Origin: Polynucleobacter sp. MWH-HuK1
GTDB taxonomy: Bacteria; Pseudomonadota; Gammaproteobacteria; Burkholderiales; Burkholderiaceae
Reading direction: 5' to 3'
NCBI RefSeq assembly: GCF_018881815.1
Contig: NZ_JACVPP010000001.1
Coordinates: 741,352-805,351 of the forward strand
DNA length: 64,000 nucleotides
The translations under genes were made by a program, and so were the position numbers. Below the pieces are notes generated by a model. The model ran no database searches and had not been told where the DNA came from. It worked only from the letters and a program-made list of their open reading frames with translations. This document shows, in pieces, positions 28,825 through 56,046 of the stretch. Position 1 is the stretch's first letter. Every line of letters starts with the position of its first letter.

Positions 28825-29112
28825 GGGCCCATAGCTCAGTTGGTTAGAGCAGAGGACTCATAGCGAAAGTTGTGCCTTATGCGTGGAAACTGCATAAGGG
28901 ATGGTGTCAAATTCGGAGAAAGCTAAAGGTAGAAATATCCAAGCTAACGCCGAGCCAAGCTTCAGTATGAAAGTGCTGTTGAAGGTGTAGAGACTAGACG
29001 GCACCCACCTAAGTCGAGTAATCGATATGGTGAAGGCATAGTCCAGGGAGTTAGGAAACTAACACAAACCGGAATCCTTTGGTCCCAGGTTCAAGTCCTG
29101 GTGGGCCCACCA
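28825..29112 (+). tRNA. tRNA-Ile2(CAU)-like gene, copy 1, interrupted by group I intron (exons 28825-28861 and 29073-29112)
   Basis: Spliced 77 nt: GGGCCCA/TGGGCCC acceptor, GAGGA-CTCATAA-TCCTT anticodon arm, encoded CCA. Ile2 rather than Met is inferred from C4-G69/C5-G68 and the Azoarcus precedent. Confidence 0.88.
28862..29072 (+). ncRNA. Azoarcus-type group I intron (211 nt) after the anticodon, copy 1
   Basis: P1 CAU/GUG with U-G at the splice site; gggatggtgtcaaattcgg, gtgtagagactagacggcacccacctaag, gaaggcatagtccaggga core, ends in G. Matches my recall of the Azoarcus tRNA-Ile(CAU) intron. Confidence 0.93.
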
Positions 29113-29119
29113 GAAAAGC

Positions 29120-29150
29120 AAACCCTCATCAGAAATGGTGGGGGTTTTGT
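29120..29150 (+). terminator. Terminator of tRNA copy 1
   Basis: aaaccctcatcagaaatggtgggggtttt hairpin plus T-rich tail; near-identical after copy 2 and the 32.86 kb relic. Confidence 0.8.
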
Positions 29151-29156
29151 CTTTTG

Positions 29157-29177
29157 AGCGTTACTTTAAGTAACGGT
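29157..29177. repeat. 21-bp island palindrome, copy 1
   Basis: agcgttactttaagtaacggt (one mismatch to consensus AGCGTTACTTWAAGTAACGCT). Confidence 0.85.
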
Positions 29178-29185
29178 AAAGTTGC

Positions 29186-29827
29186 TTAGATTTTGTTAGT
29201 CAATATCAAGTCAGCAAATGCCTTACCGCCAGAAGAAATATGGTCTCTCATCGCATCTGCTGCTTTATCTGCCTCCCCTTTCAAAATCCACTCAGCAACT
29301 GCTTTATGTTCAAGCTGCGATTTTTTGAGGCGCCCAGGTTTTTCAAACAAATGCCCGCGATATCCAGAGATCTGTAATCTCGCTGCTTTCGTTTGTTCAA
29401 CAATATAAGGGTTGCCACTGGCTCTATAAATTACCTCGTGGAATTGCACGTTTGCTAACTGGTAATTGTTGATATCTTGTGCGTTGGCAAATTTCTCAGT
29501 TTGCTTAATGGCTTCTTTAATTTCTTTTGAGTACTTGGTATTAATGCGTTGCGCAGCGAGCCTGGCTAGGACGCCCTCTAGCTCGCCCAGCCCTTCCATC
29601 ATGGCAATTAATTCATGGGCGGTAAGTTTTTTGACATAAATTCCTGTTCTAGGAATGATGTCAATTAATCCCTGGGCACTTAAGAGTAGTAGCGCCTCTC
29701 TTACGGGAGTTCTCGAAGTCTTAAATTTTGTAGCTAAGGCACGCTCATCTAAGGCTGTGCCTGGTGCTAATTTTCCTTCACGAAACTCATTTTCGATTCG
29801 CTTACGTATGCTTTGCTGGGTGTTCAT
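29186..29827 (-). CDS. GntR-family (FCD/FadR subfamily) transcriptional regulator
   Basis: N-terminal wHTH (LDERALATKFKTSRTPVREALLLLSAQGLI) and FCD-like C-terminal domain. Confidence 0.9.
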   Translation of the reverse strand: MNTQQSIRKRIENEFREGKLAPGTALDERALATKFKTSRTPVREALLLLSAQGLIDIIPRTGIYVKKLTAHELIAMMEGLGELEGVLARLAAQRINTKYSKEIKEAIKQTEKFANAQDINNYQLANVQFHEVIYRASGNPYIVEQTKAARLQISGYRGHLFEKPGRLKKSQLEHKAVAEWILKGEADKAADAMRDHISSGGKAFADLILTNKI

Positions 29828-29858
29828 GGATTCTAGGGTTTCTACTGGTTGTGATGTA

Positions 29859-29872
29859 GTTGATATATCAAC
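29859..29872. promoter_or_regulatory. Candidate GntR operator, 14-bp palindrome gttgatatatcaac
   Basis: Perfect palindrome between divergent GntR and ECH genes; half site gttgatat repeated just downstream. Confidence 0.5.
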
Positions 29873-29885
29873 AATATCCGTTGAT

Positions 29886-30668
29886 ATGCAAAATATACAC
29901 CCTAAAGAATCTTATGCACCATGCCTTAGTATCAATGGCTCATTGGCTACGATTACCTTAAATAGAGCTGCCTCGGCTAATAAGCTCACCCCTGAAGATT
30001 TAGGGGTTTTGCGTAGTCATATTCAGGCTGTCAACACGAATGCTGAAGTGTTGGTATTGGTGCTGCGGGCCGAAGGTAAGTATTTCTGTAGCGGATTTGA
30101 TATTGCAGAGGTGATTAAGAGTAGCCAAATAAAGGGAGTGAGTTTTGGTGAAATGGTAGACGTGCTTGAAGCGTGTAGAGCCGTAACGATCGCTGTAGTC
30201 CAAGGCGGTGTTTATGGCGGCGCTACCGATATGGCTCTAGCTTGCGATTTTCGATTGGGTAGTGAGGCGACTGAGATGTTTATGCCAGCAGCTCGCCTAG
30301 GATTGCATTTCTATCAAAGCGGATTAGAGCGCTATGTAACCCGACTTGGGATTGATACGACTAAAAGATTATTTCTAACAAGTGAAAAGTTAGACGCAAA
30401 ACAAATGCTGGATATTGGGTTTTTAACCTCACTATATTCAGATCAAAAGAGCTTAGATGAAGGGCTCCATAAATTGACCATATCACTAGTTGACAAGGCG
30501 CCAATCGCTCTGTTGGGAATGAAAAATTCAATTAATGCGATTGCTAGAAATAGGGCAGATGCTAAAGCTATTGATGCTCTAGTTCAGCAATCTGTTCAAT
30601 CTGGCGATATTCAAGAAGGGGCTTTGGCATGGCAACAAAAAAGATCACCAAAGTTCACAGGTAAATAA
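29886..30668 (+). CDS. Enoyl-CoA hydratase/isomerase family protein
   Basis: Crotonase fold: LRAEGKYFCSGFDIAEV, YGGATDMALACDFRLGSE; ATG at 29886 preferred over the ORF-track start. Confidence 0.85.
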   Translation: MQNIHPKESYAPCLSINGSLATITLNRAASANKLTPEDLGVLRSHIQAVNTNAEVLVLVLRAEGKYFCSGFDIAEVIKSSQIKGVSFGEMVDVLEACRAVTIAVVQGGVYGGATDMALACDFRLGSEATEMFMPAARLGLHFYQSGLERYVTRLGIDTTKRLFLTSEKLDAKQMLDIGFLTSLYSDQKSLDEGLHKLTISLVDKAPIALLGMKNSINAIARNRADAKAIDALVQQSVQSGDIQEGALAWQQKRSPKFTGK

Positions 30669-30684
30669 AAATTAGGAGGAGACA

Positions 30685-31650
30685 ATGAAAAAATTGCTTA
30701 TAACAATAGCTTTCATTATTAGCAGCGCACAGCTAGTCTTTGCGCAGGAGTATCCGCAAAAACCCATTACTTTAGTTGTGGGCTTTCCTCCTGGGGGTGG
30801 GGCGGATGCCGTAGCTCGTATAGTGAGCGATAAGCTTTCAAGGGTTTTAGAGCAGCCCATCATCATTAATAACATGCCTGGAGCTGGAACTACCATTGCA
30901 TCCGCTTATGTGGCTAAAGCTGCGCCAGATGGTTACACATTGCTTTTGGCAGGCCCGGGACTATATGGTGCTGACCAGTATCTCTATAAAAGCGCAAAAT
31001 ATGATGGCGTTAAAAACTTTACAGCAATTACCCGTTGGTCTTTGGCGCCTATGATGCTCGCTGCTAATAAAGATGTTCCGGTAAAAAATACTCAAGAATT
31101 AATTGCCTATGCCAAGAAAAATCCTGACAAGGTGACGTATTCATCATCTGGGGTGGGGGTAGTGACCCACCTAGCAGCCCTGGAGTTTGAAAAGGCAACC
31201 AATACAAAACTCATGCATATCCCCTACAAGGGAGGCGCACCTTCGTTGCAAGCACTTGCAGCGGGCGATGTGCAGATTAGCTTTGGCACACCGCCCTCAG
31301 TAATGCCTTTAGCGCAGTCTGGTAGATTAAAAATACTATCAGTGACTACGCAACAGCGCTCACCACTTTTTGCAGATATTCCATCGATGAAGGATGCTGG
31401 GGTCAAAGATTTGGATTTCACATTCTGGTTTGGCTTGTACGGTCCAGCTGGATTACCTACTGATGTATCAAAGAAGTTGTTCGATGCGAGTTTAGTTGCA
31501 TTAAATGACCCTGAGGTTAAGGCAAGGCTTGAGAAATCCGGTAACAATGCGGCCCCATCAAAATCACAGAACGACTTTTTGATGTTATCGATTGGTGAGG
31601 GCAGAAAGAGCAAAGATTTATTAGAGCAGACGGGGGCTAAAGTCGAATGA
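30685..31650 (+). CDS. TctC/Bug-family periplasmic binding protein
   Basis: Signal peptide; YPQKPITLVVGFPPGGGADAVARIV; HIPYKGGAPSLQAL. Confidence 0.92.
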   Translation: MKKLLITIAFIISSAQLVFAQEYPQKPITLVVGFPPGGGADAVARIVSDKLSRVLEQPIIINNMPGAGTTIASAYVAKAAPDGYTLLLAGPGLYGADQYLYKSAKYDGVKNFTAITRWSLAPMMLAANKDVPVKNTQELIAYAKKNPDKVTYSSSGVGVVTHLAALEFEKATNTKLMHIPYKGGAPSLQALAAGDVQISFGTPPSVMPLAQSGRLKILSVTTQQRSPLFADIPSMKDAGVKDLDFTFWFGLYGPAGLPTDVSKKLFDASLVALNDPEVKARLEKSGNNAAPSKSQNDFLMLSIGEGRKSKDLLEQTGAKVE

Positions 31651-32813
31651 GTAATTCAAATGTGGCAAAACTTGGTCCTTTAAGTGGAATCACTGTAGTT
31701 GATTTAACTAGGGTATTGGCGGGACCTTATTGCACATTGCTAATGGCAGATCTTGGCGCTCGCGTCATTAAGGTGGAGCAGCCTAATATTGGCGATGACT
31801 CGCGTCAAATAGGACCATTCATAGATGGTGAGTCTGCCTATTTCATGTCGATTAATCGCAATAAAGAATCCATCGCATTAGATTTAAAAGCTGAGGCTGA
31901 TAAGAAGATATTTGAATCTCTATTGGAGACTGCTGACGTATTGGTAGAAAACTTTCGTCCAGGCACTATGGAGAAGTTGGGCTATAGCTGGGAGGTATTG
32001 CATCAACGTTACCCCAAATTGGTCTTTACTTCAGTCTCAGGCTTTGGGCAAACTGGCCCATATAGCAAAAGGCCTGCATATGATATGGTGGTACAAGCCA
32101 TGGGCGGCATTATGAGTTTGACAGGACAACCTGGCGGTCCTCCAACCCGAGTGGGTGTTTCAATTGGAGATCTTGGAGCTGGTTTATATGCCATGATTGG
32201 TACACAGGCTGCACTATTACAAAGAGAGCGAACGGGCATGGGTGAGCAAGTTGACGTGGCTATGCTCGATTGCCAAGTCGCATTGCTTGAAAACTCCATT
32301 GCTCGTTATGAAGTAGATAAGCGTATTCCTGAGCCCATTGGTTCACGTCATCCTTCAATTACCCCCTTTGATGTTTTTAAGGCAAAAGATGGCTGGATGG
32401 TGGTGGCAGCAGGCAATGACATGTTGTTTCAACGCTTGTGCAATATTTTGAATCTACCTAACTTAAAAACAGATGAGAGATTTTCTACAAACCCATTGCG
32501 ATGCGAGCATCATGATCAGTTAAAAGTAGAACTTGAAAAACGCCTCCAAGAGGAAGCTTGTAAGCACTGGATTGACTTATTAATGGAAAATAATATTCCA
32601 ACGGGTGAATATAATAATTTGGCCCAAGTTTTGGAAAGTCCCCAAATACACGAGCGTGAGATGTTATTGGATGTTTTTTCTGCAAATGGCAGTAAGTTAA
32701 CAGTGGCGGGTAACCCTATTCATATTGGGTCATTTGTTTCTAAGGTAGATAGAAATCCCCCGGCATTGGATCAAGATAGACATGAAATAATGAAGGAATT
32801 GAATTTGGACTGA
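31647..32813 (+). CDS. CaiB/BaiF family CoA-transferase
   Basis: LSGITVVDLTRVLAGPYCTLLMADLGARVIKVEQP; RPAYDMVVQAMGG. Confidence 0.93.
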   Translation: MSNSNVAKLGPLSGITVVDLTRVLAGPYCTLLMADLGARVIKVEQPNIGDDSRQIGPFIDGESAYFMSINRNKESIALDLKAEADKKIFESLLETADVLVENFRPGTMEKLGYSWEVLHQRYPKLVFTSVSGFGQTGPYSKRPAYDMVVQAMGGIMSLTGQPGGPPTRVGVSIGDLGAGLYAMIGTQAALLQRERTGMGEQVDVAMLDCQVALLENSIARYEVDKRIPEPIGSRHPSITPFDVFKAKDGWMVVAAGNDMLFQRLCNILNLPNLKTDERFSTNPLRCEHHDQLKVELEKRLQEEACKHWIDLLMENNIPTGEYNNLAQVLESPQIHEREMLLDVFSANGSKLTVAGNPIHIGSFVSKVDRNPPALDQDRHEIMKELNLD

Positions 32814-32860
32814 TGTGCATTTGGATGGGTGAGCCTCAATTGGGTATCCTAGAGACATAC

Positions 32861-32882
32861 TCAAGTCCTAGTGGGCCCACCA
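32861..32882 (+). pseudogene. Relic 3' end of the same tRNA(CAU) (T-arm/acceptor/CCA)
   Basis: tcaagtcctagtgggcccacca matches the intact 3' end at 21/22 positions; followed by the same terminator and palindrome. Confidence 0.85.
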
Positions 32883-32926
32883 GAATAACAAACCCTCATC
32901 AGCAATGGTGGGGTTTTTGTCTTTTA

Positions 32927-32947
32927 AGCGTTACTTAAAGTAGCGGC
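32927..32947. repeat. 21-bp island palindrome, copy 2 (degenerate)
   Basis: agcgttacttaaagtagcggc. Confidence 0.75.
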
Positions 32948-33200
32948 ATTCATCAAATAAGTCCTTGATTTTTGCCTCCTGATACCTTAGTGCTAACTGA
33001 AGTAAAGTTGCCGTCCTGTTAACTTTCAACTTATCCATGAGGTTCGCTCTATGCGCTTCTAGGGCCTTAACGGAAATGCCGAAGTCTGAGCCAATCACTT
33101 TATTAATTCTGTCGGCACAAATATGATTTAAAACATCGATCTCTCTGCGGATTAAAAGTTGATTGTGTTGATTGATCTGATTGAGGATGGTGGTTCCCAT
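32931..33200 (-). pseudogene. Truncated LuxR/FixJ-type response regulator (HTH only)
   Basis: VKALEAHRANLMDKLKVNRTATLLQLALRYQEA resembles the C-terminus of the FixJ-like protein at 39870-40514; no receiver domain. Confidence 0.6.
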
Positions 33201-33215
33201 GTTCTATTTTTAAAA

Positions 33216-34001
33216 TTAATTCTCAGATCCATTTCGTTGCTCAAATTGTCTAATGGCATTAAGCAGATAAGGGGCAAACCGTTCAGCATACTCTGCACCA
33301 CTCCATTCTGTAGCTACGCCAGAGACATGTAATGCGCCCAATGCTCGACCATCCGCGCTAAGAACGGCTGCGCCTAATGCAACTTCGTCAAATATGAATT
33401 CATTATAGACAAGCCCATACCCTCTTTTGCGGGTTAATTTGATTTCACTTTGAATTTTTGAAGGGGAGGTCATAGTGAAAGTTGTCCATGGCTTAATAAT
33501 TGCTGTAGACATATAGCTTGCCCACTCATCTTCATCAAAGTGTGACAGCACAGCTCTTCCACCTGCGGTGCAAAATAATGGTACACGTCGACCAATTAAA
33601 GATGCATGGTATTGATTGTTATTTGTTTGATGGCGCATAACATGAACTAAATGATTGTCGTCAAGTAGTGATAGGCTGATTTTTTCGCCGGTAGTACGCG
33701 ATAGATCCAACATAATCGGATTGAGCGACTCGACTAAAGTATTGCTGCGTAAAAAATGAAATGTTAAGTCCAGCACCTGTTTGCCAAGCTTGTAGCGTCT
33801 TGTAGTCTGGTTTTGTTCTATATACCCCTCAGCACAAAGCGTAAATAGGTATCTCTGTGCAGTGCTTTTATCAAAATCACTATGCTCTACAACCTCTTTG
33901 AGGCTGAGCTCTTCCCCGCCCGCTTTAAAGCAATTGAGGACTGTAAAAACCTTGCCTACTGAGCCGACGTAAAGCGCATTGTGTTTTATTGTATTTTTCA
34001 T
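33216..34001 (-). CDS. IclR-family transcriptional regulator
   Basis: SVGKVFTVLNCFKAGGEELSLKEVVEHSDFDKSTAQRYLFTL HTH and IclR effector domain; start chosen at internal Met (ORF track extends to 34049). Confidence 0.88.
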   Translation of the reverse strand: MKNTIKHNALYVGSVGKVFTVLNCFKAGGEELSLKEVVEHSDFDKSTAQRYLFTLCAEGYIEQNQTTRRYKLGKQVLDLTFHFLRSNTLVESLNPIMLDLSRTTGEKISLSLLDDNHLVHVMRHQTNNNQYHASLIGRRVPLFCTAGGRAVLSHFDEDEWASYMSTAIIKPWTTFTMTSPSKIQSEIKLTRKRGYGLVYNEFIFDEVALGAAVLSADGRALGALHVSGVATEWSGAEYAERFAPYLLNAIRQFEQRNGSEN

Positions 34002-34032
34002 TTTTTCCGTATAAAATATTTCTATATAATAT

Positions 34033-34055
34033 AAAGTATTGTATTTCAATACTTT
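34033..34055. promoter_or_regulatory. Candidate IclR operator aaagtattg-tattt-caatacttt
   Basis: Perfect 9-bp inverted repeat with 5-bp spacer between divergent iclR-like and M20 genes. Confidence 0.5.
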
Positions 34056-35241
34056 TAGTTTAGAAAAGGGTTTTTCTTTGAGTACTCAATTACCAGCAAG
34101 TCAGTGGCTTAAAAATCAACATGACAATATGTTGAAGTTGCTTGAAGAAATCGTAAATATCGATTCGAACAGCTACGATAAGCAGGGCGTTTCACGTGTA
34201 TTTCGTTGCCTAGAAGTGTTTTTTAATCATCACGGGTTGGTGACTAAATCACATTGTTTAAAGGATGTTGAGGTTGCGATTACGGTTGAGGTAGAGCCAA
34301 AGAGCAAAATATCTGGTTCAGTTCTACTCATGGGGCACTGTGACACGGTATTCCCGTTGGGTGAAGCAGCTCGTCGCCCATTCAAAATCCAAGATAACCG
34401 TGCCTATGGTCCTGGAGTAGCTGATATGAAGGCGGGAATTGTGATGAATGCATTCATATTGGTAGCAATCGCTCAAAGCAAAGAGCCCTTTCCCGAGGTT
34501 GCGGGACTTTTTACTTGTGACGAAGAAATTGGATCTCCCTTGAGTAAAGAGATTATTGCGAGGGTTGCGAGGGATAAGCAATTTGTATTTAATTCCGAGC
34601 CTGGGCGCCCAAATGGTAATGTTGTGACGGGCAGAAAAGGCGGCGTATTCATTGAGATGGATATTCAGGGTAAAGCGGCTCATTCTGGCGCAAATTTTGC
34701 AGATGGAATTAGCGCCATTTCTGAATTGGCCCACAAAGTAATCGAACTCGATAAGTTAACCGATATCGATGCGGGCGTCACGGTTAACGTAGGTCTGGTT
34801 TCTGGGGGAATGTCGGTAAACACATCAGCCCCATCATCTAAAGCCTCAATCGATCTCAGAATCCGTGATCTAGAGCAGCGTGAATCAATGGTGAACAAAA
34901 TTCGCTGTATCTGCAATAAATCATTTATTTCGGGAGCGTTAGCAAAAATGGATGTCATCGGTGAATTTCAGCCATTTATACCCACTCTACAATCAAAAAA
35001 GCTATTTGAGTTGTATCAATCAACGCTTGCAGATATGGGATACACAACAGGCGAGGAGTTTAGTGGTGGCTGTGCAGATTCTGGCGTCACCTCGAATATT
35101 GGCGCCATTACTCTTTGCGCGACTGGGCCTGTAGGTGGCAAATTTCATACTGTAGAAGAATATTGTGAAATCGATACTATCGTACCGAGAGCGCAGGGAT
35201 TAATAGGCACGATCCAAAATCTTGGAAATCAAGATTGGTAA
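34039..35241 (+). CDS. M20-family metallopeptidase (glutamate carboxypeptidase-like); start may be TTG near 34078
   Basis: LLMGHCDTVFP, GPGVADMKAG, TCDEEIGS motifs. Confidence 0.88.
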   Translation: MYFNTFSLEKGFSLSTQLPASQWLKNQHDNMLKLLEEIVNIDSNSYDKQGVSRVFRCLEVFFNHHGLVTKSHCLKDVEVAITVEVEPKSKISGSVLLMGHCDTVFPLGEAARRPFKIQDNRAYGPGVADMKAGIVMNAFILVAIAQSKEPFPEVAGLFTCDEEIGSPLSKEIIARVARDKQFVFNSEPGRPNGNVVTGRKGGVFIEMDIQGKAAHSGANFADGISAISELAHKVIELDKLTDIDAGVTVNVGLVSGGMSVNTSAPSSKASIDLRIRDLEQRESMVNKIRCICNKSFISGALAKMDVIGEFQPFIPTLQSKKLFELYQSTLADMGYTTGEEFSGGCADSGVTSNIGAITLCATGPVGGKFHTVEEYCEIDTIVPRAQGLIGTIQNLGNQDW

Positions 35242-35275
35242 CGTGTGACAAAAATACATTACTTAAGGGTATCCA

Positions 35276-36280
35276 ATGAAAAACTCATTAATTAAATCAC
35301 GCAGATCTTTTATTTTGGCAGGTCTGGCAATAACTTTAATTCCATGGATGGACTTAGCGCATGCTGCAGGTTACCCATCCGGCCCAATTACTATGATGGT
35401 TCCGTACCCTGCTGGTGGAGCAAGTGATGTCAGTGCCCGTATTTTGAGTAATCCAATTGGTAAAGAGTTAGGCGCAACGGTCATTGTCGAAAATCTAGGG
35501 GGTGCAACAGGCACCATAGCTGCATCAAAAGTTCTTAATGCTAAAGCAGATGGAAGCATTATTTTTCAAGGTACGCAAAATGAGTTAATCATTCCGCCTC
35601 TAACTAATCGAGCAGTAACTTATCAGCCCGATGCATTTGAGCTTACTCAGCCTTCAACAATTACGCAGCTTGTGTTATTAGTACGCAATGATTTACCAGC
35701 AAAAACAATTCAAGATTTTTTTAAGCTCGCAAGAAAAAGTACGTCAACACCATTGACGTATGGAACGGTAGGAGTCGGTTCACTTTACCATCTCATGACT
35801 GAATATATGGGGAAAATTATGAAAATACCGTTTTCACATATTCCTTATAAAGGCGCTACACCAGTGGTGCAAGACCTCTCCGGTGGACAGATTGACTTTG
35901 CAATTATGCCCTTTCAGTCATCCATGCTGGATATGATTAAGTCAGGTCGTTATAGAGCATTAGCAGTTTTTACTAAGAATAGGCCACCTTTGTTGGCGCA
36001 AATACCTAGCATCACAGAAATTCCAGAGTTAGCAAAATTTGAATATGTTAGTTCAGCTGGCTATTATGTTAAAAAAGGCACACCCCTTGAAATTAAGGCC
36101 GCCCTAAATCAGGCAATAGGTAAGGCGCTACAAGATCCAGCTGTGATATCAAAACTTGAGGCAGACGGACGTAATATTCCAAAGCGTATGAGCCTTGCAG
36201 AGGCAGCCGCTGTATATGAGACTGAAATTGCGAAATATAGAGAAATGATTCGTATAACTGGTTATGTACAAAGCGACTAA
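35276..36280 (+). CDS. TctC/Bug-family periplasmic binding protein
   Basis: YPSGPITMMVPYPAGGASDVSARI; HIPYKGATPVVQDL. Confidence 0.92.
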   Translation: MKNSLIKSRRSFILAGLAITLIPWMDLAHAAGYPSGPITMMVPYPAGGASDVSARILSNPIGKELGATVIVENLGGATGTIAASKVLNAKADGSIIFQGTQNELIIPPLTNRAVTYQPDAFELTQPSTITQLVLLVRNDLPAKTIQDFFKLARKSTSTPLTYGTVGVGSLYHLMTEYMGKIMKIPFSHIPYKGATPVVQDLSGGQIDFAIMPFQSSMLDMIKSGRYRALAVFTKNRPPLLAQIPSITEIPELAKFEYVSSAGYYVKKGTPLEIKAALNQAIGKALQDPAVISKLEADGRNIPKRMSLAEAAAVYETEIAKYREMIRITGYVQSD

Positions 36281-36513
36281 TGCTCTTTCATTGAGTCATA
36301 AAAATTCATATCTGTGGTGCAAGGGGTGTGTAAGACGACCCTGTGTATCCTGATAATGCAATTAGTTGCTATGGTCAGACTGAGTGAGTTTTCAAATTTA
36401 CGCATCAAAGACTGGTGGTAAGTCATAGCAATTACTAAAAAGCGATAAGCAAACCTTAAAGACATAGCATTTGAAGGTATAGTATTGTAAGTAACAAAAA
36501 GTAATTAAATCAT

Positions 36514-36695
36514 TCTCGGGAGAGATTGCTTTTACAGCAACGCCGAAGGAGCAACCGCCCCGGAAACTCTCAGGCAAAAGAACCGAAATGATTTTTAAAC
36601 TCTGAAGAGATATTGGGTATTCGTCACCCGATAACACCGAAGGAGCAAGCAAATATTGAATATTTGCGAATCTCTCAGGTCCAGAACAGAGGGGG
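36514..36695 (+). promoter_or_regulatory. Tandem glycine riboswitch (two gcvT-type aptamers)
   Basis: cgggagagattg...cgccgaaggagcaaccgccccggaaactctcaggcaaa then ctgaagagat...caccgaaggagcaagc...gaatctctcaggtcc: both glycine aptamer cores, short linker. Confidence 0.92.
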
Positions 36696-36746
36696 CCCCT
36701 TGAGCATTTGCAATGGGTAACCCTTGACGTTTTTTGGACTTTAAAA

Positions 36747-38006: not shown

Positions 38007-38018
38007 TTGAGTCTAATA

Positions 38019-38039
38019 AGCGTTACTTAAAGTAACGCT
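38019..38039. repeat. 21-bp island palindrome, copy 3 (extended 31-nt perfect palindrome 38014-38044)
   Basis: taataagcgttacttaaagtaacgcttatta. Confidence 0.9.
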
Positions 38040-38099
38040 TATTAATCCCTCAAAAAGTACTTTGGAACAACGAAGTGTGAAATGGTTATTCCAAATATC

Positions 38100-38120
38100 C
38101 TTTGGTTTCGAAAACCAAAG
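38100..38120. repeat. Conserved inverted repeat in element right end
   Basis: ctttggtttcgaaaaccaaag (9-bp stem); near-identical at 55420-55440. Confidence 0.75.
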
Positions 38121-38232
38121 ACCGATAGACCACTTCTTTTAAATCTACGAATATGCTTACACATTTGCTCACACACCGACACTGACCACCCGCAGACCCT
38201 CTGTTTATAAGGGTCTAACTTGGGCTTCTGCT

Positions 38233-46743: not shown

Positions 46744-46755
46744 TATACATTAAAA

Positions 46756-47394: not shown

Positions 47395-47411
47395 TATTTT
47401 TTTGTCTTGAA

Positions 47412-47428
47412 CTAGACAGTCGGTCTAA
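47412..47428. promoter_or_regulatory. Candidate TetR operator site 3: CTAGAC-AGTCG-GTCTAA
   Basis: Immediately upstream of the AcuI-like gene. Confidence 0.8.
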
Positions 47429-47446
47429 ATTTAAAAGGAGAATGAA

Positions 47447-48430
47447 TTGTTTAAAGCGCTTGTGGTTGAAAAAGATGACTCAGGTTACAGAACAAGTCTG
47501 CAGTCTATTGATGAAGCTCAGTTACCGGAAGGGGATGTAACTATTCAGGTTTCATGGAGCACATTGAACTATAAAGATGGTTTAGCCATTACTGGAAAAG
47601 GCCCTGTAGTTCGTAAATTCCCTCTAACGCCAGGCATAGATATGGCGGGAACCGTTATTGAAAGCTCTCATTCACGCTGGAAAGAGGGCGACAAGGTTCT
47701 ATTGAATGGATGGGGAGTAGGCGAAAGCCACAGTGGATGCTTGGCACAGAAAGCTCGCGTAAAAGGTGATTGGCTGGTGCCGCTACCAGATAAATTTTCG
47801 GAACGTCAGGCAATGTCAATCGGAACTGCTGGTTATACGGCAATGCTCTGCGTGATGGCGCTAGAGAAGCATGGGATAAAACCAACCGATGGCGAAATTT
47901 TAGTTACTGGCGCAAATGGTGGGGTTGGTAGCATTGCGATTATATTGCTTAAGAAAATGGGATATACAGTCATCGCATCGACAGGTCGATTGGAAGAGGA
48001 GGCTCACCTAAAGTCTCTGGGAGCCGCGGGAATTATTGATCGAAAAGAGCTCTCGGAGCCAGGGAGACCTTTAGGAAAAGAGCGCTGGGCCGGGGTAGTT
48101 GATTCTGTGGGAAGCACTACGCTTGCAAATGCATGCAGCACTACAAAGTATGCTGGTGCCATTGCAGCTTGTGGCCTTGCTGGAGGGGCGGATTTGCCAG
48201 TAACTGTCATGCCATTCATTTTGCGCGGTATCACCCTCTATGGAATTGATAGCGTGATGGCTCCTTTAGAGCGCAGAATCGAAGCTTGGGGACGGCTCGC
48301 CGAATTGCTTGATATTTCAAAATTAGAGTCCAACACAACAGAGGTCGGCTTGGAAGAAGCAATTGCAGTAGGCCCTCAATTGCTAGAAGGCAAGGTGCGC
48401 GGTCGCGTAGTTGTAGATGTGAATCGTTAA
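47447..48430 (+). CDS. AcuI/YhdH-family acrylyl-CoA reductase-like quinone oxidoreductase (TTG start)
   Basis: MFKALVVEKDDSGY...NYKDGLAITGKGPVVRKFPLTPGIDMAGTV; VTGANGGVGSIAI. Confidence 0.9.
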   Translation: MFKALVVEKDDSGYRTSLQSIDEAQLPEGDVTIQVSWSTLNYKDGLAITGKGPVVRKFPLTPGIDMAGTVIESSHSRWKEGDKVLLNGWGVGESHSGCLAQKARVKGDWLVPLPDKFSERQAMSIGTAGYTAMLCVMALEKHGIKPTDGEILVTGANGGVGSIAIILLKKMGYTVIASTGRLEEEAHLKSLGAAGIIDRKELSEPGRPLGKERWAGVVDSVGSTTLANACSTTKYAGAIAACGLAGGADLPVTVMPFILRGITLYGIDSVMAPLERRIEAWGRLAELLDISKLESNTTEVGLEEAIAVGPQLLEGKVRGRVVVDVNR

Positions 48431-48476
48431 TCCTCAAATTTAATTTACTTAATCATCATATTTATAAGGAAATACT

Positions 48477-49055
48477 ATGAGCCAACAATCAACTCCTGCA
48501 GTTAGCCGTTTTCCAGTTCCTGAATTAAAAGATATGCCGGAGGACATTAGAGAGCGCATTATTGCTGTTCAAGAGAAAGCTGGATTTGTTCCAAATGTAT
48601 TTCTTGTGTTGGCATACCGTCCTGATGAATTCCGTGCATTTTTCGCTTATCACGATGCATTAATGGAAAGAAAAGGCAATCTAACTATCGCCGAAAAAGA
48701 AATGATAGTAGTTGCCACTAGTAATGTGAATCAGTGCCAATACTGCGTCATTGCTCATGGCGCAATTCTTCGTATTCGAGGCAAAAACCCTCTTATTGCC
48801 GATCAAGTTGCCACAAATTATCGCAAGGCAGATATCACCCCCCGTCAAAAAGCAATGCTGGACTTTGCGATGAAAGTTTCAGCCACTGCGCATCTCGTTG
48901 GGGATGCGGATTTTGAAGTTTTAAAAGGACACGGGTTTGACGAAGATGATATCTGGGATATCGCGGGCATTTCTTCATTCTTTGGTCTGTCTAATCGAAT
49001 GGCTAATTTCACTTCGATGCGTCCAAATAATGAGTTTTATTCAATGGGGCGATGA
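48477..49055 (+). CDS. AhpD-like/peroxidase-related carboxymuconolactone decarboxylase-fold protein
   Basis: NVNQCQYCVIAHGAILR (CxxC-H) motif. Confidence 0.85.
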   Translation: MSQQSTPAVSRFPVPELKDMPEDIRERIIAVQEKAGFVPNVFLVLAYRPDEFRAFFAYHDALMERKGNLTIAEKEMIVVATSNVNQCQYCVIAHGAILRIRGKNPLIADQVATNYRKADITPRQKAMLDFAMKVSATAHLVGDADFEVLKGHGFDEDDIWDIAGISSFFGLSNRMANFTSMRPNNEFYSMGR

Positions 49056-49162
49056 TTAAAATCTAACCATGTCTATGTTGATGGCAATCCTAAGGCTAGC
49101 AGGAAAATGTTGATACACATACTTTGTAGTGCATTTTGAGTTGAGCTCGATTAAGGCTCAGT

Positions 49163-49615
49163 ATGAATGAACCATTTCAAGATAAATATGCCGATGAGTA
49201 TAGTCATTGCTATGGTTGTGGTAAAAATAATCCAGCTGGCCATAAGCTTAAAAGTTATTGGAATGGGGTGGATACGATTGCAAAATTTACCGTTGAACGG
49301 AAATATAGTGGAGGCGTTCCCGATCATGTATATGGCGGAATGATCGCATCTCTTTTTGATTGCCATGGTACCGCATCCGCTGCAGCATTTTCCAATCGAC
49401 TCATAAAGGAAGGGGTGGGTGAAAGTAAGGAGTTAATAAGATTTGTAACTGGATCCTTGGCTGTAAAGTTTTTGCGCCCAACTCCAATAGGTGTTGAACT
49501 CACTATAAATGGTAGTCTCAAAAGTATTGTTGGGCGAAAAATAGAGGTTGTTATGACCTTGTTTGCAAATAGTATTGAGTGCGCAAGCGCTGAAATGTTA
49601 GCAATACAAATATAA
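49163..49615 (+). CDS. PaaI-family hotdog thioesterase
   Basis: HCYGCGKNNPAGHKL...YGGMIASLFDCHGTASA. Confidence 0.82.
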   Translation: MNEPFQDKYADEYSHCYGCGKNNPAGHKLKSYWNGVDTIAKFTVERKYSGGVPDHVYGGMIASLFDCHGTASAAAFSNRLIKEGVGESKELIRFVTGSLAVKFLRPTPIGVELTINGSLKSIVGRKIEVVMTLFANSIECASAEMLAIQI

Positions 49616-49654
49616 ATATAAAAGCCTTGGCTAGTAATCCTTTGGGGAGATGTT

Positions 49655-50449
49655 TTGATGGGCGAAAAAGAGTATGTTTTTCGACGTGATTGGGATGGAA
49701 TTGCAATTCTCACCATGAATCGACCGGAGTCTCGAAATGCTTTGTCATTGGGGATGATTTCTGCACTTCAATGTCAGTTTGAATTAATTGCGCAAGATAA
49801 ATCAATCAAGGTGGTTATTCTTTCTGGTTCCGGAACTGCATTTTGTGCCGGCCATGATCTAAAGGAAATGAAGTGCCAAAATTTTGATTTAAGTTATTCA
49901 GAAAAGCTGTTTGCTAATTGCACGGTATTGATGCAAAAAATGTTACGACTTCCTCAGCCCGTAATTGCTCAAGTTCATGGTTACGCTACAGCAGCAGGCG
50001 TACAACTTGTTGCTAGCGCTGATTTAGCAGTTGCTACGACCAATTCACAATTTGCAACCCCTGGTGTCAATATTGGTCTATTTTGTTCAACACCAATGGT
50101 TGCGGTTTCCAGAAATATATCTAATAAGCACGCCATGCAGATGTTACTTTTAGGTGATCTGATAGATGCAAATACGGCCTATCGGTTTGGCCTTATTAAT
50201 GAAGTTGTTGAGCCAGACGAATTGGAAGATTACACCTTATCAATGGCAAAAAAAATTGCAGAAAAATCCTACCCCATAATTTCCTTAGGTAAAGAGGCTT
50301 TTTATCGCCAGTCAGAGTTATCAATAGATGATGCCTATTCTTATGCGAGTGATGTTATGAAAAAAAATCTTGAAATGCATGACGCTCGCGAAGGGATTAG
50401 TGCATTTATTGAAAAACGGCCGCCTATATGGAAAAGTAGTAGTAATTAA
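49655..50449 (+). CDS. Enoyl-CoA hydratase/isomerase family protein
   Basis: AILTMNRPESRNALS; GSGTAFCAGHDLKEM. Confidence 0.9.
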   Translation: MMGEKEYVFRRDWDGIAILTMNRPESRNALSLGMISALQCQFELIAQDKSIKVVILSGSGTAFCAGHDLKEMKCQNFDLSYSEKLFANCTVLMQKMLRLPQPVIAQVHGYATAAGVQLVASADLAVATTNSQFATPGVNIGLFCSTPMVAVSRNISNKHAMQMLLLGDLIDANTAYRFGLINEVVEPDELEDYTLSMAKKIAEKSYPIISLGKEAFYRQSELSIDDAYSYASDVMKKNLEMHDAREGISAFIEKRPPIWKSSSN

Positions 50450-50462
50450 AATTAAATTTTAG

Positions 50463-51659
50463 TTGTTTGAACGGTTAAAGGCTGCTAATGACATGACGCT
50501 TACTGAAGAATTTGATCAATCTCTTTTGCCTGGCGAGCTGATTCTATTGGAATCTGCAAAGCTGTTCGGTGCGACCAATATTTCACCGAATGCAAAGCAG
50601 TGGGAGTACACGCGAAAATTTCCTATCGATGAGTTGCGTCAAGCAATTCAAAGGGGATTTGGATCTATTGAGTTGCCACAAATTTTTGGGGGCCCAGGAT
50701 TTTCATTTGGCACAAAAATGCGCATTGCCGAAGAATTGAGTAAATTTGACTTAGCATTCACTTTCGCTTTAATACAGCATCACAATGCATTGGTTCGGGT
50801 GGCCGAACTGTCACCCTCAGATCATTCCAGGGAGCTTATCGCCAGCATGCTAACGGGAGATCTTATTGGTTGCACTGCAATGAGTGAGCCGGAGGCTGGT
50901 AGCGATTTTTCTTCATTAAAAACCGTCGCTAAGAAGGTTGCTGGCGGTTGGATTCTTAATGGTAAAAAAGGATGGATTACAAATGCCACAGACGCTAATG
51001 TTTGTCTAACCTATGCTCAAACTGACACGTCTTTGGGCTCAAAAGGTATTGCCTGTTTTGTAGTTCTTGGCGACAAAGAAGGATTTATTCGCCAAGCGGG
51101 ATATGAATTGCATGGCGCTCATGCGGCAGGAGTAGGGGGTTATGGTTTAGTCGATTATTTTGTGCCAGATGCATTAGTGCTATATGCACCAGGACTAGCA
51201 TTCAAAACAGCTTTACAAGGTGTAAATAGGGCTCGAATTCACGTCACCGCCATGAATGCGGGGATGCTTGAATCATCATTATCAATCGCAACTCAATACG
51301 GAGAAAATAGGCGGGCATTTGGAAAATCTATTTTGGAATTTCAAGGATTGGCTTGGTCTTTAGCAAATGTTGCGACAAGTTTAGAGGCAATGAGATCTTT
51401 GGCCTATCGAGGTGCGCGGCAAATTATGCGTGGAGAGGATGCGCTTGACTCAGCGGCGATTGCCAAAAAATTTGGCAATGAGCAAACGCTTAGTGGCGTT
51501 GCTGCGTGTATGCAGGCCATGGGAGCAAATGGATTAAGGGCTGAATATCCATTGGCGCGACATTTAGCCGCAGCGAAACTATTAAGTTATACCGATGGAA
51601 CTGTGGAGATGATGAATGAAAGAATAAGTGGCGCTGTTAAAAAAAGATATGTACTTTAA
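50463..51659 (+). CDS. Acyl-CoA dehydrogenase (start may be 50493)
   Basis: GCTAMSEPEAGSDFSSLKTVAKK; YTDGTVEMMNERI. Confidence 0.9.
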   Translation: MFERLKAANDMTLTEEFDQSLLPGELILLESAKLFGATNISPNAKQWEYTRKFPIDELRQAIQRGFGSIELPQIFGGPGFSFGTKMRIAEELSKFDLAFTFALIQHHNALVRVAELSPSDHSRELIASMLTGDLIGCTAMSEPEAGSDFSSLKTVAKKVAGGWILNGKKGWITNATDANVCLTYAQTDTSLGSKGIACFVVLGDKEGFIRQAGYELHGAHAAGVGGYGLVDYFVPDALVLYAPGLAFKTALQGVNRARIHVTAMNAGMLESSLSIATQYGENRRAFGKSILEFQGLAWSLANVATSLEAMRSLAYRGARQIMRGEDALDSAAIAKKFGNEQTLSGVAACMQAMGANGLRAEYPLARHLAAAKLLSYTDGTVEMMNERISGAVKKRYVL

Positions 51660-51694
51660 TTTTGCTTAACGATGTGTTGGTGGGAGAGAGAAAA

Positions 51695-52663
51695 ATGACT
51701 TACAAATACTTGCTTATTTTTGTGGTTGCTATTACAAATTTATTTTTGCCTAAATTGGCGCTTGCAAACGATTATCCTAATCGCCCTGTGAAATTAATCA
51801 TTCCGTTCCCTCCAGGGGGTTCAGTGGATTATGTAGCGAGAATAATAGGTCAAAAATTTTCAGAACAAATGGGTCAATCAGTTGTGTTAGAAAATAAGGG
51901 TGGCGCTAGTGGATCAATTGGTGCCGCAGAAGTTGCTAAGGCAAAGCCTGATGGATATACCCTGCTAATGGTGTTTGATTCACAAGCAGTAAATCAGTAT
52001 TTATATAAGCTGCCCTATGACACATTTACATCTTTTGACTATATAACTGAGATGGTGTCTGCTCCGATGTTGTTAGCAACGGCCAAATCAGCCCCATTTA
52101 ATACGACACCAGAACTCATAGCTTATGCAAAATCTCGCCCAAATGGTGTTACGTATGGGTCGTCGGGTACGGGTGGCTCTAATCATTTAAATGCATTAGG
52201 GGTCGCTGATAAAGCCGGAATTAATGCTTTGCATGTGCCCTATAAAGGTGGTGGCCCAATGTTGACTGCGGCAATGGCTGGTGAGGTGGATTATGTAGTT
52301 ACAACAATGCCTGTAATCATGAGTCAAATAAAAGATGGGGGAAAACTAAAGGCGTTGGCAGTAAGTAGTAAGACTAGAGTATCTCAATTTCCAAACTTGC
52401 CGACAATTGGTGAATCGTTACCTGGATATGAGGCGAGCTCTTGGATAGGTTTAGTGGGACCTGCGGGCTTGCCAAAAGATGTGCAAAATAAAGTCTTTAC
52501 TGCCATGAAAAATACTTTAGAGTCCCCTGAGATCAAAAGCCGTTTAACCGCAGATGGATTCCAAGTAATTGCTAGTACTCCAGCAGCATTTTTATCTAAA
52601 GTGCGATCTGAGTCTGAGACGATTGGTAAGCTAATTATCTCAAAGCAAATTAAGGTTGAGTAA
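51695..52663 (+). CDS. TctC/Bug-family periplasmic binding protein
   Basis: YPNRPVKLIIPFPPGGSVDYVARIIGQKFSEQMGQSVVLENKGG; HVPYKGGGPMLTA. Confidence 0.92.
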   Translation: MTYKYLLIFVVAITNLFLPKLALANDYPNRPVKLIIPFPPGGSVDYVARIIGQKFSEQMGQSVVLENKGGASGSIGAAEVAKAKPDGYTLLMVFDSQAVNQYLYKLPYDTFTSFDYITEMVSAPMLLATAKSAPFNTTPELIAYAKSRPNGVTYGSSGTGGSNHLNALGVADKAGINALHVPYKGGGPMLTAAMAGEVDYVVTTMPVIMSQIKDGGKLKALAVSSKTRVSQFPNLPTIGESLPGYEASSWIGLVGPAGLPKDVQNKVFTAMKNTLESPEIKSRLTADGFQVIASTPAAFLSKVRSESETIGKLIISKQIKVE

Positions 52664-54269
52664 TATGGGTTTTCCAGTCCTCCCGGAGTGGATTCAGTCC
52701 ATACCAGATGCATTGCAATTCTTTGCAAAGGAATTGCCAAATAAGCCCGCTATTATTTGGTATGGACATAAAATTACCTATTCGGAGCTTGATCGCCTAA
52801 GTGATCAATGTGCGAAAGTACTAAGAAGTTATGGGGCAAAAAAGGGTGAGCCTATTGCTCTATTCATGCAAAATTGTCCACAATACGTAATAGCTCACTT
52901 GGCAATACAAAAAATTGGAGCAGTTGTTAGTCCTTGTAGCCCACTATTTAAATCTATTGAGTTAGCGTATCAGTTGAATGATTTAGGTGCCCACTTAATA
53001 ATTGCTGCAGATAATTTATATCCACTTGTAAAAGAAGTTTTGCCGCAAACTCAGATTCGACAAGTGTTCCTTGTGCATTATCAGGATTTAATTCCTAGAA
53101 ATCCAACTTATTGGGTGCCAGAGGATGTTAGGTGCGACAGAAATATGCCGCCTGAGGCAGTTGATCTGATGGCCGCCGTTAATTTAGAGTCGGCGGGTGA
53201 GATTGATAAGAATTTAGATCCACAAGCTTTGGCTTTATTGGTTTATACATCAGGGACGACTGGGCGACCCAAGGGGGCAATGCTGACTTTAGCTAATATT
53301 TTCTTTAAGAGTTATGAAACTGCAAAGTTCGGAGAAATGGTTTCAGAAGATATTTTTTTGGCAATACCCCCCCTCTATCATATTTCAGGGATGCTATTTG
53401 GAATAAATATTCCAATACTGCTGGGTAGTACAGTTGTATTGCATTTTCGATTCGATGCCAAATCAACTGCTCAATCAATTCAAGCGCATAAGGTGACTTA
53501 CTGGAAAGGGGTTGCTCCAATGCTAGCCGCAATTATTTGCTTGGATACTGTGGAGCAGTATGACTTTTCATCGCTACGAATGACAACTGCATCTAGCTTT
53601 GGAATACCAATGTCTGAAGACCTATCAAGGAAATGGAAATCTATTACAGGTGGGTGCCCATCAAGTGAATCTGGTTATGGTTTATCCGAGACGCACACCA
53701 TGGATTCGATGATGCCCCCAGGAGATATTCGTTTTGGTACCAACGGAAAAATACTTCCAGGCGTTTCTTGTCGTATTGTGAACCTTCAAGACGGCAAAGA
53801 TATGCCGTTGGATGAAGAAGGTGAGATTGTGTTGAAAAGTCCGGGTAATTTTTTGGGGTACTGGCATGAGGATGATAAGACAGCCGAAACCCTGAAGAAT
53901 GGTTGGGTTTACACGGGTGATATAGGCAAGCTAACTTCTGATGGCTACTTAATTCTTTTGGGAAGAATAAAAGAATTGATCAAGGTATCTGGATATAGCG
54001 TATTTCCTGCTGACGTCGAGTCAATTCTCTTAAAGCATCCAAAAGTTGATCAGGTAGCTGTAGTTGGGATTCCTGATGCGAATAAAGGTGAAGTCATAAA
54101 AGCGGTTTTTGTTCTTAAACCAGAGTTTATTAACCAAATTAGTGTAGATGAAATCACCGCTTGGAGTCGTGAGAATATGTCTTCATACAAAGTTCCCAAA
54201 CTTATTGAGTTCCGTGATTCATTACCAAAGAACAATACAGGGAAAGTAATGCGTAGATTGTTGAAGTAA
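52656..54269 (+). CDS. Acyl-CoA synthetase / AMP-dependent CoA ligase
   Basis: LLVYTSGTTGRPKGAMLT; GWVYTGDIGKLTSDGYLILLGRIKELIKVSGYSVFPADVE. Confidence 0.93.
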   Translation: MSNMGFPVLPEWIQSIPDALQFFAKELPNKPAIIWYGHKITYSELDRLSDQCAKVLRSYGAKKGEPIALFMQNCPQYVIAHLAIQKIGAVVSPCSPLFKSIELAYQLNDLGAHLIIAADNLYPLVKEVLPQTQIRQVFLVHYQDLIPRNPTYWVPEDVRCDRNMPPEAVDLMAAVNLESAGEIDKNLDPQALALLVYTSGTTGRPKGAMLTLANIFFKSYETAKFGEMVSEDIFLAIPPLYHISGMLFGINIPILLGSTVVLHFRFDAKSTAQSIQAHKVTYWKGVAPMLAAIICLDTVEQYDFSSLRMTTASSFGIPMSEDLSRKWKSITGGCPSSESGYGLSETHTMDSMMPPGDIRFGTNGKILPGVSCRIVNLQDGKDMPLDEEGEIVLKSPGNFLGYWHEDDKTAETLKNGWVYTGDIGKLTSDGYLILLGRIKELIKVSGYSVFPADVESILLKHPKVDQVAVVGIPDANKGEVIKAVFVLKPEFINQISVDEITAWSRENMSSYKVPKLIEFRDSLPKNNTGKVMRRLLK

Positions 54270-54295
54270 AGAACATTTTTACTGAGAGGCTTTTT

Positions 54296-55276
54296 ATGGA
54301 TAGCAAAACTATATTCAAAATTTTTATAGTTTCAGTAGTCCTATGGGCAAATAATTTACTTGCGCAAACAAGTGAATACCCAACTAAACCAATAAAGCTT
54401 TTAGTGGGATTCTCTGCTGGTGGCGCTACTGATGTATCTGCCCGCCTATTTGCAAAGCGTATGAGCGAAATACTTGGTCAACCAGTTACAGTCGAAAATA
54501 AACTCGGGGCGGCAGGGACTATTGCCGCAGAACAAGTTGCTAAAAGTCCAGCAGATGGGTATACGCTTTTATATACAAGTAGCTCTATTCATGGTATCAG
54601 CCCAAATGTATATCCAAATTTATCGTGGGATCCAATTAAAGATTTTTCTCCAATTGCATTGGTTGCCAAATATCCTCAAGCATTGTTAATAAGCAATGAA
54701 GTGCCAGCAAATAATTTACGAGAATTAGTGGTGCTGATTAATAAGTCGCCTGGTAAATATTCTTATGGTTCAGCAGGAAATGGGGGAACTCAACATTTGG
54801 CAGGTGCTTTGCTAAATGCTCAAGCAAAGATGGATATGACTCACATACCATATAAAGGTATGTCAGCTGCTTATCCAGATTTAATTTCAGGTCGTATTCA
54901 GGTAATGTTTGATAATGCACCTTCAGCAATTCCTTTTATTACCAGTGGAAAGGTAAAGGGGGTTGCAGTATCCTCGCTTAACCGGGTTAAATCTTTACCA
55001 AATATACCCACCATTGCCGAATCTGGTTACCCAGGCTTTGAAGTTGTTGCATGGACGGGGTTTGTTGCCCCCGCAAATACCCCTGTATCCATAATTAATA
55101 AATTAAATGCTGCAATACTTAAAGCTTCTCAATCGCCGGAGGTAAAAGATTGGTTAGAAGATAATGGAAGTCCAACTAACCTAGTGGGGAATCCTGCTGA
55201 TTTCGGTTTATTTTTAAAGAAGGAATTAGCATTTTGGAAGCAGGCAGTTGAAATTTCCGGGGCTAGGGCAGACTAG
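54296..55276 (+). CDS. TctC/Bug-family periplasmic binding protein
   Basis: YPTKPIKLLVGFSAGGATDVSARLFAKRMSEILGQPVTVENKLGAAG; HIPYKGMSAAYPDL. Confidence 0.92.
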   Translation: MDSKTIFKIFIVSVVLWANNLLAQTSEYPTKPIKLLVGFSAGGATDVSARLFAKRMSEILGQPVTVENKLGAAGTIAAEQVAKSPADGYTLLYTSSSIHGISPNVYPNLSWDPIKDFSPIALVAKYPQALLISNEVPANNLRELVVLINKSPGKYSYGSAGNGGTQHLAGALLNAQAKMDMTHIPYKGMSAAYPDLISGRIQVMFDNAPSAIPFITSGKVKGVAVSSLNRVKSLPNIPTIAESGYPGFEVVAWTGFVAPANTPVSIINKLNAAILKASQSPEVKDWLEDNGSPTNLVGNPADFGLFLKKELAFWKQAVEISGARAD

Positions 55277-55335
55277 TGTTGAACCATTTTAATGATCCAT
55301 AAAAGTTTGTGTGTGGGCTGGATTACGAGGTTCTG

Positions 55336-55356
55336 AGCGTTACTTAAAGTAACGCT
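55336..55356. repeat. 21-bp island palindrome, copy 5 (perfect)
   Basis: agcgttacttaaagtaacgct. Confidence 0.9.
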
Positions 55357-55419
55357 ACTCAACATCCGCTAAAGCCGCTTTGGAGCAACGAAGTACTAAA
55401 TGGTTGCTGTAAAAACCCT

Positions 55420-55440
55420 CTGGTTTCGAAAACCAAAGAG
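55420..55440. repeat. Conserved inverted repeat in element right end (second copy)
   Basis: ctctggtttcgaaaaccaaag; compare 38100-38120. Confidence 0.75.
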
Positions 55441-55551
55441 TGAGAGACTATTTCTTAAAAGATGAGTTATTTCACTACACAAAACGCTACACACCGATAA
55501 TCAGGCGCTGTAACCTCTTGAAATTCTAGTGGTTTTCTTTGGGCTTCTGCT

Positions 55552-55558
55552 CTCATAA
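55552..55558. other. Putative element-element junction core CTCATAA (junction C)
   Basis: gggcttctgctCTCATAAgaaagaagccc; arms at 55475-55496 and 55636-55658. Confidence 0.65.
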
Positions 55559-55635
55559 GAAAGAAGCCCTAGGGGTCTTGTGACAAAGACCTCAATAGAT
55601 TCAAGAGGTTAGTGGTCGATTAGGTAGTCAAAATT

Positions 55636-55658
55636 GCTTACACACCGCTTACACACCG
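55636..55658. repeat. Tandem 11-bp repeat CTTACACACCG x2, candidate arm-type sites (second copy)
   Basis: gcttacacaccgcttacacaccg, starting 79 bp after the core. Confidence 0.7.
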
Positions 55659-55750
55659 GAGCAAAAACCGAGGTGTGTAGTAAATGCGGTTTTAGTGTGG
55701 TTTTGAAGTGGTAAGCACCAGCAGTAAGGTGTGTAGTAAAAACAGTTTTA

Positions 55751-56039
55751 GGGCCCATAGCTCAGTTGGTTAGAGCAGAGGACTCATAGCGAAAGTTGTG
55801 CCTTATGCGTGGAAACTGCATAAGGGATGGTGTCAAATTCGGAGAAAGCTAAATGCAGCCAAAAGCTGCACAAGCTAACGCCGAGCGAAGCTTAGTAGAA
55901 ATACTTTGAACGTGTAGAGACTAGACGGCACCCATCTAAGTCGAGCAATCGATATGATGAAGGCATAGTCCAGGGAGTAGCGAAAGCTACACAAACCGGA
56001 ATCCTTTGGTCCCAGGTTCAAGTCCTGGTGGGCCCACCA
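55751..56039 (+). tRNA. tRNA-Ile2(CAU)-like gene, copy 2, interrupted by group I intron (exons 55751-55787 and 56000-56039)
   Basis: Exons identical to copy 1; spliced 77 nt with encoded CCA. Confidence 0.88.
55788..55999 (+). ncRNA. Azoarcus-type group I intron (212 nt), copy 2
   Basis: Same conserved core as copy 1, with compensatory stem changes and a different peripheral hairpin. Confidence 0.93.
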
Positions 56040-56046
56040 GAAAAGC

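Follow-up and report, generated by a model that had tools for sequence, protein, structure and literature searches.

The disrupted tRNA-Ile2(CAU) site

The window is a stretch of 64,000 nucleotides (C1:741352-805351) of a 2.17-Mb Polynucleobacter genome. It contains a native gene for tRNA-Ile2(CAU) behind rpoD that is cut in two by tandem genomic islands, here called element 1 and element 2. Each island carries, just inside its left end, a complete replacement copy of the tRNA gene that is interrupted by a group I intron. The features at the left border of the islands and at their common boundary are:

26157..28616, + strand: rpoD (sigma-70), upstream neighbour of the native tRNA-Ile2(CAU)
28627..28665, + strand: cut 5' half of the native tRNA-Ile2(CAU), forming the left attachment junction (attL)
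28659..28665, + strand: 7-bp core CTCATAA in the anticodon loop, at attL
28666..55558, + strand: element 1 (26,893 bp including one copy of the core)
28825..29112, + strand: complete intron-bearing replacement tRNA-Ile2(CAU) of element 1
28862..29072, + strand: group I intron of element 1, Azoarcus type, 211 nt
55552..55558, + strand: core CTCATAA at the right end of element 1 and the left end of element 2
55559..64000 and beyond the window, + strand: element 2 (approximately 33 kb)
55751..56039, + strand: complete intron-bearing replacement tRNA-Ile2(CAU) of element 2
55788..55999, + strand: group I intron of element 2, 212 nt

The cut 5' half begins 10 bp past the rpoD stop (28616) and breaks off after CTCATAA in the anticodon loop. 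In relatives, the C-terminal peptide of RpoD is conserved at this place, and the spacing between rpoD and the tRNA gene is 7–13 bp, or 123 or approximately 770 bp in some lineages. The matching 3' half sits at C1:830064 (L001), behind the right end of an element, and the native gene was rebuilt exactly when the two halves were joined. This confirmed the claim of an earlier, sequence-only reading of the stretch that the host tRNA gene is cut in its anticodon loop. The heptamer CTCATAA was not enriched in the window (11 occurrences, 9.9 expected by chance), so only positioned cores were taken as evidence; the islands were assigned to tRNA-Ile2 because the core position and the joining of the flanks restore the native gene. 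Both tandem islands lie between the two tRNA halves. Element 1 is bounded by direct repeats of the core, and the outer flanks of the tandem pair give an intact site, as in an integrative element. The classical tRNA-restoring architecture, with a 3' half in the attachment site of the element (attP), was absent: attL in the window consists of the cut half followed directly by the arm of the element.

The tRNA-Ile2 is needed for AUA codons. Besides its intron-bearing genes, the genome encodes 37 tRNAs. Only two of these have a CAT anticodon, elongator and initiator tRNA-Met as judged by sequence, and no intronless tRNA-Ile2 was present among the tRNAs of the whole genome. Since the only uninterrupted CAT tRNAs are of the Met types, tRNA-Ile2 is encoded only by intron-bearing genes.

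Replacement genes and their introns

The two complete tRNA copies that had been described just inside the left ends of the elements were recovered, 159 bp past the core at 28659-28665 and 192 bp past the core at 55552-55558. ARAGORN detected 0 tRNAs in the window since the introns break its model, and spliced sequences were tested in their place. Removal of the introns in silico gave a normal tRNA fold with the anticodon CAT for both replacements. Both introns lie exactly between CTCAT and AA of the core, i.e. between positions 36 and 37, as the earlier reading had placed them. They matched the group I intron family of Rfam (RF00028) above its gathering score of 50 bits (28849-29065: 57.4 bits, E 6e-12; 55775-55992: 51.7 bits, E 3e-10), and are clearly distinct from each other (similarity ratio 0.91). 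The genome has four group I introns, every one within a copy of tRNA-Ile2 (the other two in L007 and L010).

In an alignment of 27 introns from several families, the core was invariant and 23 of the 52 predicted pairs showed compensatory changes. The pairing of the exon CAU with the guide GUG was invariant as well, with a U-G pair at the splice site and a terminal G at the end of the intron. By their scores and these exon and guide features, the introns in the window can be classified as catalytic group I introns of the Azoarcus type. The conservation and covariation support a working ribozyme, which would splice in the cell. At the DNA level, the left half-site and 6 of the 7 core bases are unaffected by the intron, but the right half-site is lost. 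Such a partial loss of the attachment (att) site fits recombination that is reduced, not abolished.

Replacement types in the genus

The stretch 3' of every tRNA-Ile2 5' half was read in 186 congeneric genomes, with approximately 60 loci fetched, and replacements within 300 bp of a cut half were counted by hand. Seventy were found, of which 54 contained the Azoarcus-type intron (intron 1), 6 a second group I intron (intron 2) and 1 was a heterologous tRNA (G053); the other 9 were intronless. The intron-bearing share beside a cut half was thus 60/70, and the layout seen in the window recurs both in the genus and in other genera. In 70 genomes, the only tRNA-Ile2 gene was uncut and intronless. 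The association between intron and replacement was strong (Fisher's exact test, p ~1e-26, relatedness ignored). Intron 2 scored below the Rfam threshold (35.6 bits, E 2e-7) and lies between positions 33 and 34, so the two introns occupy different sites and both interrupt the same core. Each of them was found with several different left-end sequences. A reading of all uncut genes as virgin sites was rejected, as some (G002) have a tRNA 3' remnant downstream.

Other forms of repair also occur at this site. The 5.7-kb island of G053 (L036, L158) carries a divergent, intronless tRNA(CAT) with an altered anticodon stem, immediately followed by an integrase; the changed stem may be another way of altering the half-sites. 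Some islands, judging from their flanks, look classical: the gene at attL is made whole by a 3' half that the element carries in attP, and the arm sites lie past the terminator. Islands with the left end AAAGTTGG have an intact tRNA gene approximately 5.5 kb further on, which suggests that they bear the 5' half at the right end.

Sites of later insertions

The right-end junctions were counted by hand in 68 genomes; junctions into the left arms of other islands were counted across the whole genus. In approximately 50 cases in the 68 genomes, the right end is followed by an intronless tRNA 3' half. Across the genus, 24 right ends border the left arm of another island and represent tandem insertions at att junctions, and an intron follows the right end only in G104 and in one decayed junction common to three genomes (two events). 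In G123, one island had inserted into the replacement of another, which was intronless; a similar nesting was found in G043, where the first replacement may be of either type. Counting G043 as intronless, the re-hits were 2 of 26 for intron-bearing against 2 of 2 for intronless replacements (p 0.016, with small numbers), which supports protection by the intron and does not prove it. Intron-bearing genes thus appear to be mostly avoided by later islands, with a protection that is partial at best. Extra 3' halves in a genome were not counted as re-hits of intronless replacements, since some genomes have the classical architecture (an intact tRNA at attL and a different terminator flank).

The islands in the window fit this pattern. 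When element 1 is removed, the start-to-start distance between the cut half and the replacement of element 2 becomes 231 bp, and in single-island relatives it is 231–233 bp. This spacing makes attL of element 2 the probable point of entry of element 1; the intron-bearing tRNA gene of element 2 was not entered.

Integrases and other features of the islands

The following features bear on the mobility of the two islands:

28740..28764, + strand: repeats TTACACACCG, probable integrase arm sites of element 1
57934..59286, + strand: tyrosine integrase of element 2, 450 aa (phrog_1 integrase, E 4e-35)

The motif of the arm repeats, assigned from its sequence, recurs in relatives and in an element of Nevskiaceae. 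The 450-aa integrase gave no match in sequence searches of Pfam or the PDB; it was found through PHROGs and through homology to the integrase of the G053 element (E 5e-183), with the R, K, HxxR and Y motifs present in the alignment. No integrase was found in element 1 (28666-55558). The typical ends of element 1 suggest that it may have moved in trans, by the integrase of its neighbour. A 188-aa recombinase (L004:6556-7122) was initially taken as the integrase of element 2 and was dropped in favour of the 450-aa protein near the left end. It is a tyrosine recombinase consisting of the catalytic domain only, with relatives at three other places in the genome (L015, L016, L017). Element 2 also contains the N-terminal remnant of an integrase fused to an unrelated C-terminus (L004:3477-4100).

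Element 2 extends up to the tRNA 3' half at C1:830064, or approximately 88.7 kb in window coordinates, and its cargo includes the integrase and efflux genes. The cargo of element 1 is catabolic, with Pfam matches to transporters, a coenzyme A ligase, a dehydrogenase and similar catabolic genes. A glycine riboswitch (36507-36595, 66.8 bits) lies in element 1, 5' of a gene for an oxidoreductase dependent on flavin adenine dinucleotide. The perfect inverted repeat CGTTACTT(A/T)AAGTAACG occurs at 29159-29175 and 55338-55354, just inside both island ends. It was also found in L002, L007, L010 and many relatives, and follows some uncut tRNA-Ile2 genes too; it is possibly a site for a regulator or an excisionase.

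Occurrence outside the genus

In a survey of 399 genomes of the order, the Azoarcus-type intron was rare outside Polynucleobacter. The layout of a cut half followed after approximately 190–250 bp by an intron-bearing tRNA recurred in Gulbenkiania mobilis, Dechloromonas, three genomes of the Azoarcus family (G370, G583, G671) and a metagenome-assembled genome of Nevskiaceae. In the Nevskiaceae genome, the arm repeats of element 1 recur too, and the tRNA is directly followed by a gene for a homologous integrase. G370 combines a cut gene of the native type with an intron-bearing replacement of the Azoarcus type; the native 3' half follows 2.9 kb downstream. Azoarcus-type introns were also seen in tRNA(CAU) genes of viral contigs (L116-L125), with an adjoining tilS-like gene in L122 and L125.

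Interpretation and alternatives

We consider it probable that the islands replace the tRNA they destroy and gain partial, intron-based immunity of the att site. On this view, a tyrosine recombinase integrates the island into the anticodon-loop core CTCATAA of tRNA-Ile2(CAU) and destroys an essential tRNA gene, for which the island compensates with a complete copy approximately 200 bp inside its left end, probably transcribed by read-through from the rpoD operon. Most copies hold a group I intron, predicted to be self-splicing, inside the core, so that the right half-site and a portion of the crossover core are missing from the DNA, and the spliced RNA would be a normal tRNA. The sequences show the integration, the replacement, the intactness of the intron core, the lack of any further tRNA-Ile2 gene and the bias of later insertions. 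The replacement would then be a poor attachment site at which the island's own integrase or that of a sibling rarely recombines, and later islands would stack at the att junctions instead. The sequence-only reading had proposed that the island restores the essential tRNA in a protected form. The intron-split replacement, the broken core and the placement of later islands mostly elsewhere bear this out, but the protection would be partial, and that it is the selected function is an inference, as are splicing in the cell and transcription from rpoD.

A number of observations weigh against this interpretation. Nine replacements (approximately 13%) are intronless, and elements can therefore manage without the intron. 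Group I introns in tRNA genes usually sit in the anticodon loop, and breakage of the core follows from that position. The genomes and elements are related, so the counts do not represent independent events. At least two insertions did enter intron-bearing genes, contrary to the claim that such genes cannot be recut. In G104 (Polynucleobacter sp. AP-Kaivos-20-H2), the right end of an island leads through CTCATAA straight into the intron; the final base of the core is A in place of G, which would follow if the core of the arriving island had supplanted the resident one. Another is an older, decayed junction into the intron that is common to G044, G045 and G108. Intron-bearing genes directly behind rpoD with no cut half beside them, which the sequence-only reading had held to be incompatible with its proposal, occur in a few genomes (G032, G034), although G034 has a tRNA 3' remnant 560 bp downstream that suggests a lost island. 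Outside the genus, intron-bearing tRNA-Ile2 genes without a visible cut half were found in Azoarcus, Azonexus, Limnobacter and others. One of these is L109, identified as Azoarcus by its ribozyme sequence; it has the intron gene behind rpoD and neither a cut half nor an island within the 15 kb read.

Near the old junction of G044 and G108, a reverse-transcriptase-like open reading frame with a YMDD motif (L082, ~3200-3510; L084) ends just before the point of entry into the intron.

The genes without a cut half behind rpoD in Azoarcus, Azonexus, Limnobacter and others, together with the occasional targeting of intron-bearing genes, would suit a history in which the elements captured a tRNA-Ile2 of Burkholderiales that already contained the Azoarcus-type intron. 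The intron would then be neutral cargo, and the break of the core a by-product of its location in the anticodon loop. We regard this as unlikely, since replacements are also associated with a second intron that is of a different kind and interrupts the loop elsewhere, and the native uncut genes of 70 congeneric genomes are intronless. Moreover, the same left-end family is found with intron-bearing and with intronless replacements, which means that intronless forms can arise but stay a minority, and later insertions avoid the intron-bearing genes. It is far less probable still that the intron serves regulation or another process, such as a controlled supply of the tRNA, with an incidental effect on integration. 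The same intron type does occur in tRNA genes of phage contigs, two of them beside tilS-like genes, where protection of an att site is not evident; the mature tRNA is unchanged, however, and no regulatory partner was seen.

A sub-variant of the explanation by partial immunity differs in the beneficiary, and its probability overlaps with that of the explanation as a whole. With an intronless replacement approximately 200 bp away from attL, the element would contain a third att site. Recombination of this site with attL or the right attachment junction (attR) would remove the left arm and leave the element stranded, so the intron would protect the island that carries it. The cut half and the replacement are merely 190–250 bp apart, element 2 has an integrase of its own, and in G032 and G034 the replacement is fused to the native spot with the cut half gone, as such a deletion would produce. 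Such fusions would equally arise, with or without an intron, by homologous recombination between the identical 5' halves, and the data do not separate self-protection from the exclusion of siblings. We hold this variant to be possible but doubtful.

The Azoarcus gene may itself stem from an island. The congeners G601 and G656 have an ordinary, different and intronless tRNA-Ile2, and the exons of the ribozyme-bearing genes in L109 and L163 (Azoarcus, G568) differ from it, which suggests a gene replacement, perhaps by an island. In G370, of the same family, an island with the intron-bearing tRNA of the Azoarcus type lies between the two halves of the cut native gene. A past island is a plausible source of the intron gene in Azoarcus; Azoarcus-type tRNAs without an intron also occur in the Azoarcus family. 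The wider proposition, that group I introns can be selected as att shields, that islands at tRNA-Ile2 were repeatedly armed with them and that the Azoarcus tRNA-Ile ribozyme is an island leftover, is tentative, and we place it somewhat below even chances.

Relation to known systems

The group I intron of the Azoarcus pre-tRNA-Ile(CAU) was reportedly described by Reinhold-Hurek and Shub in 1992. It shares with the introns in the window its type, the tRNA, the position 36/37 and the location behind rpoD (L109), and differs in that no island is visible within the 15 kb read. No earlier link between the role of this intron and integration was found in the open-access literature. Sites of tyrosine integrases in anticodon loops are said to have been described by Williams in 2002, and the site here is alike in its 7-bp core in the loop, where the two strands of the stem serve as inverted half-sites. 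In classical elements, a 3' half in attP restores the tRNA, whereas most islands here carry a whole, intron-split gene.

Tycheposons of Prochlorococcus and Methylophilaceae are likewise tRNA-targeted islands with tyrosine recombinases (PMC10872708). By their description they resemble the islands here in their metabolic cargo, their streamlined aquatic hosts and the tRNA at one border; in contrast, no intron-bearing replacement is described for them, and introns are not mentioned there (PMC10872708). For archaea, tRNA introns were proposed as shields against integration by Randau and Soll (2008), as cited in PMC3293823. For the tRNA-Thr of Caldiarchaeum, the authors suggest that element-borne introns prevent further invasion (PMC3293823). 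In the archaeal case as in the islands here, the element supplies an intron that interrupts the att portion of a tRNA gene, and a block on invasion is proposed. The archaeal introns are spliced by proteins and the case is a single one, in which the intron lies in attP and restores the host gene (PMC3293823). The islands of Polynucleobacter bring a second, complete gene that holds a ribozyme predicted to be self-splicing; they are known here from dozens of genomes, with counts of later insertions. No earlier report in open-access text linked group I introns with Polynucleobacter or with tRNA-targeted islands. The novelty that the sequence-only reading had claimed thus stands for bacterial group I introns, but not for the concept of an intron shield, which was already proposed for archaea; what the bacterial version adds to that idea is a much larger number of replicate cases.

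With an intron of this kind, an element could make good the damage to an essential gene and yet not regenerate the site that it targets. This offers a natural, testable reason for the persistence of self-splicing introns in bacterial tRNA genes and ties the textbook ribozyme of Azoarcus to mobile DNA. It extends the idea from archaeal introns by many replicate cases, a measurable outcome and natural controls for future work, which are provided by the islands that repair this site with an intronless or divergent tRNA or in the classical way. The islands also illustrate the role of such elements in the gene content of abundant freshwater bacteria.

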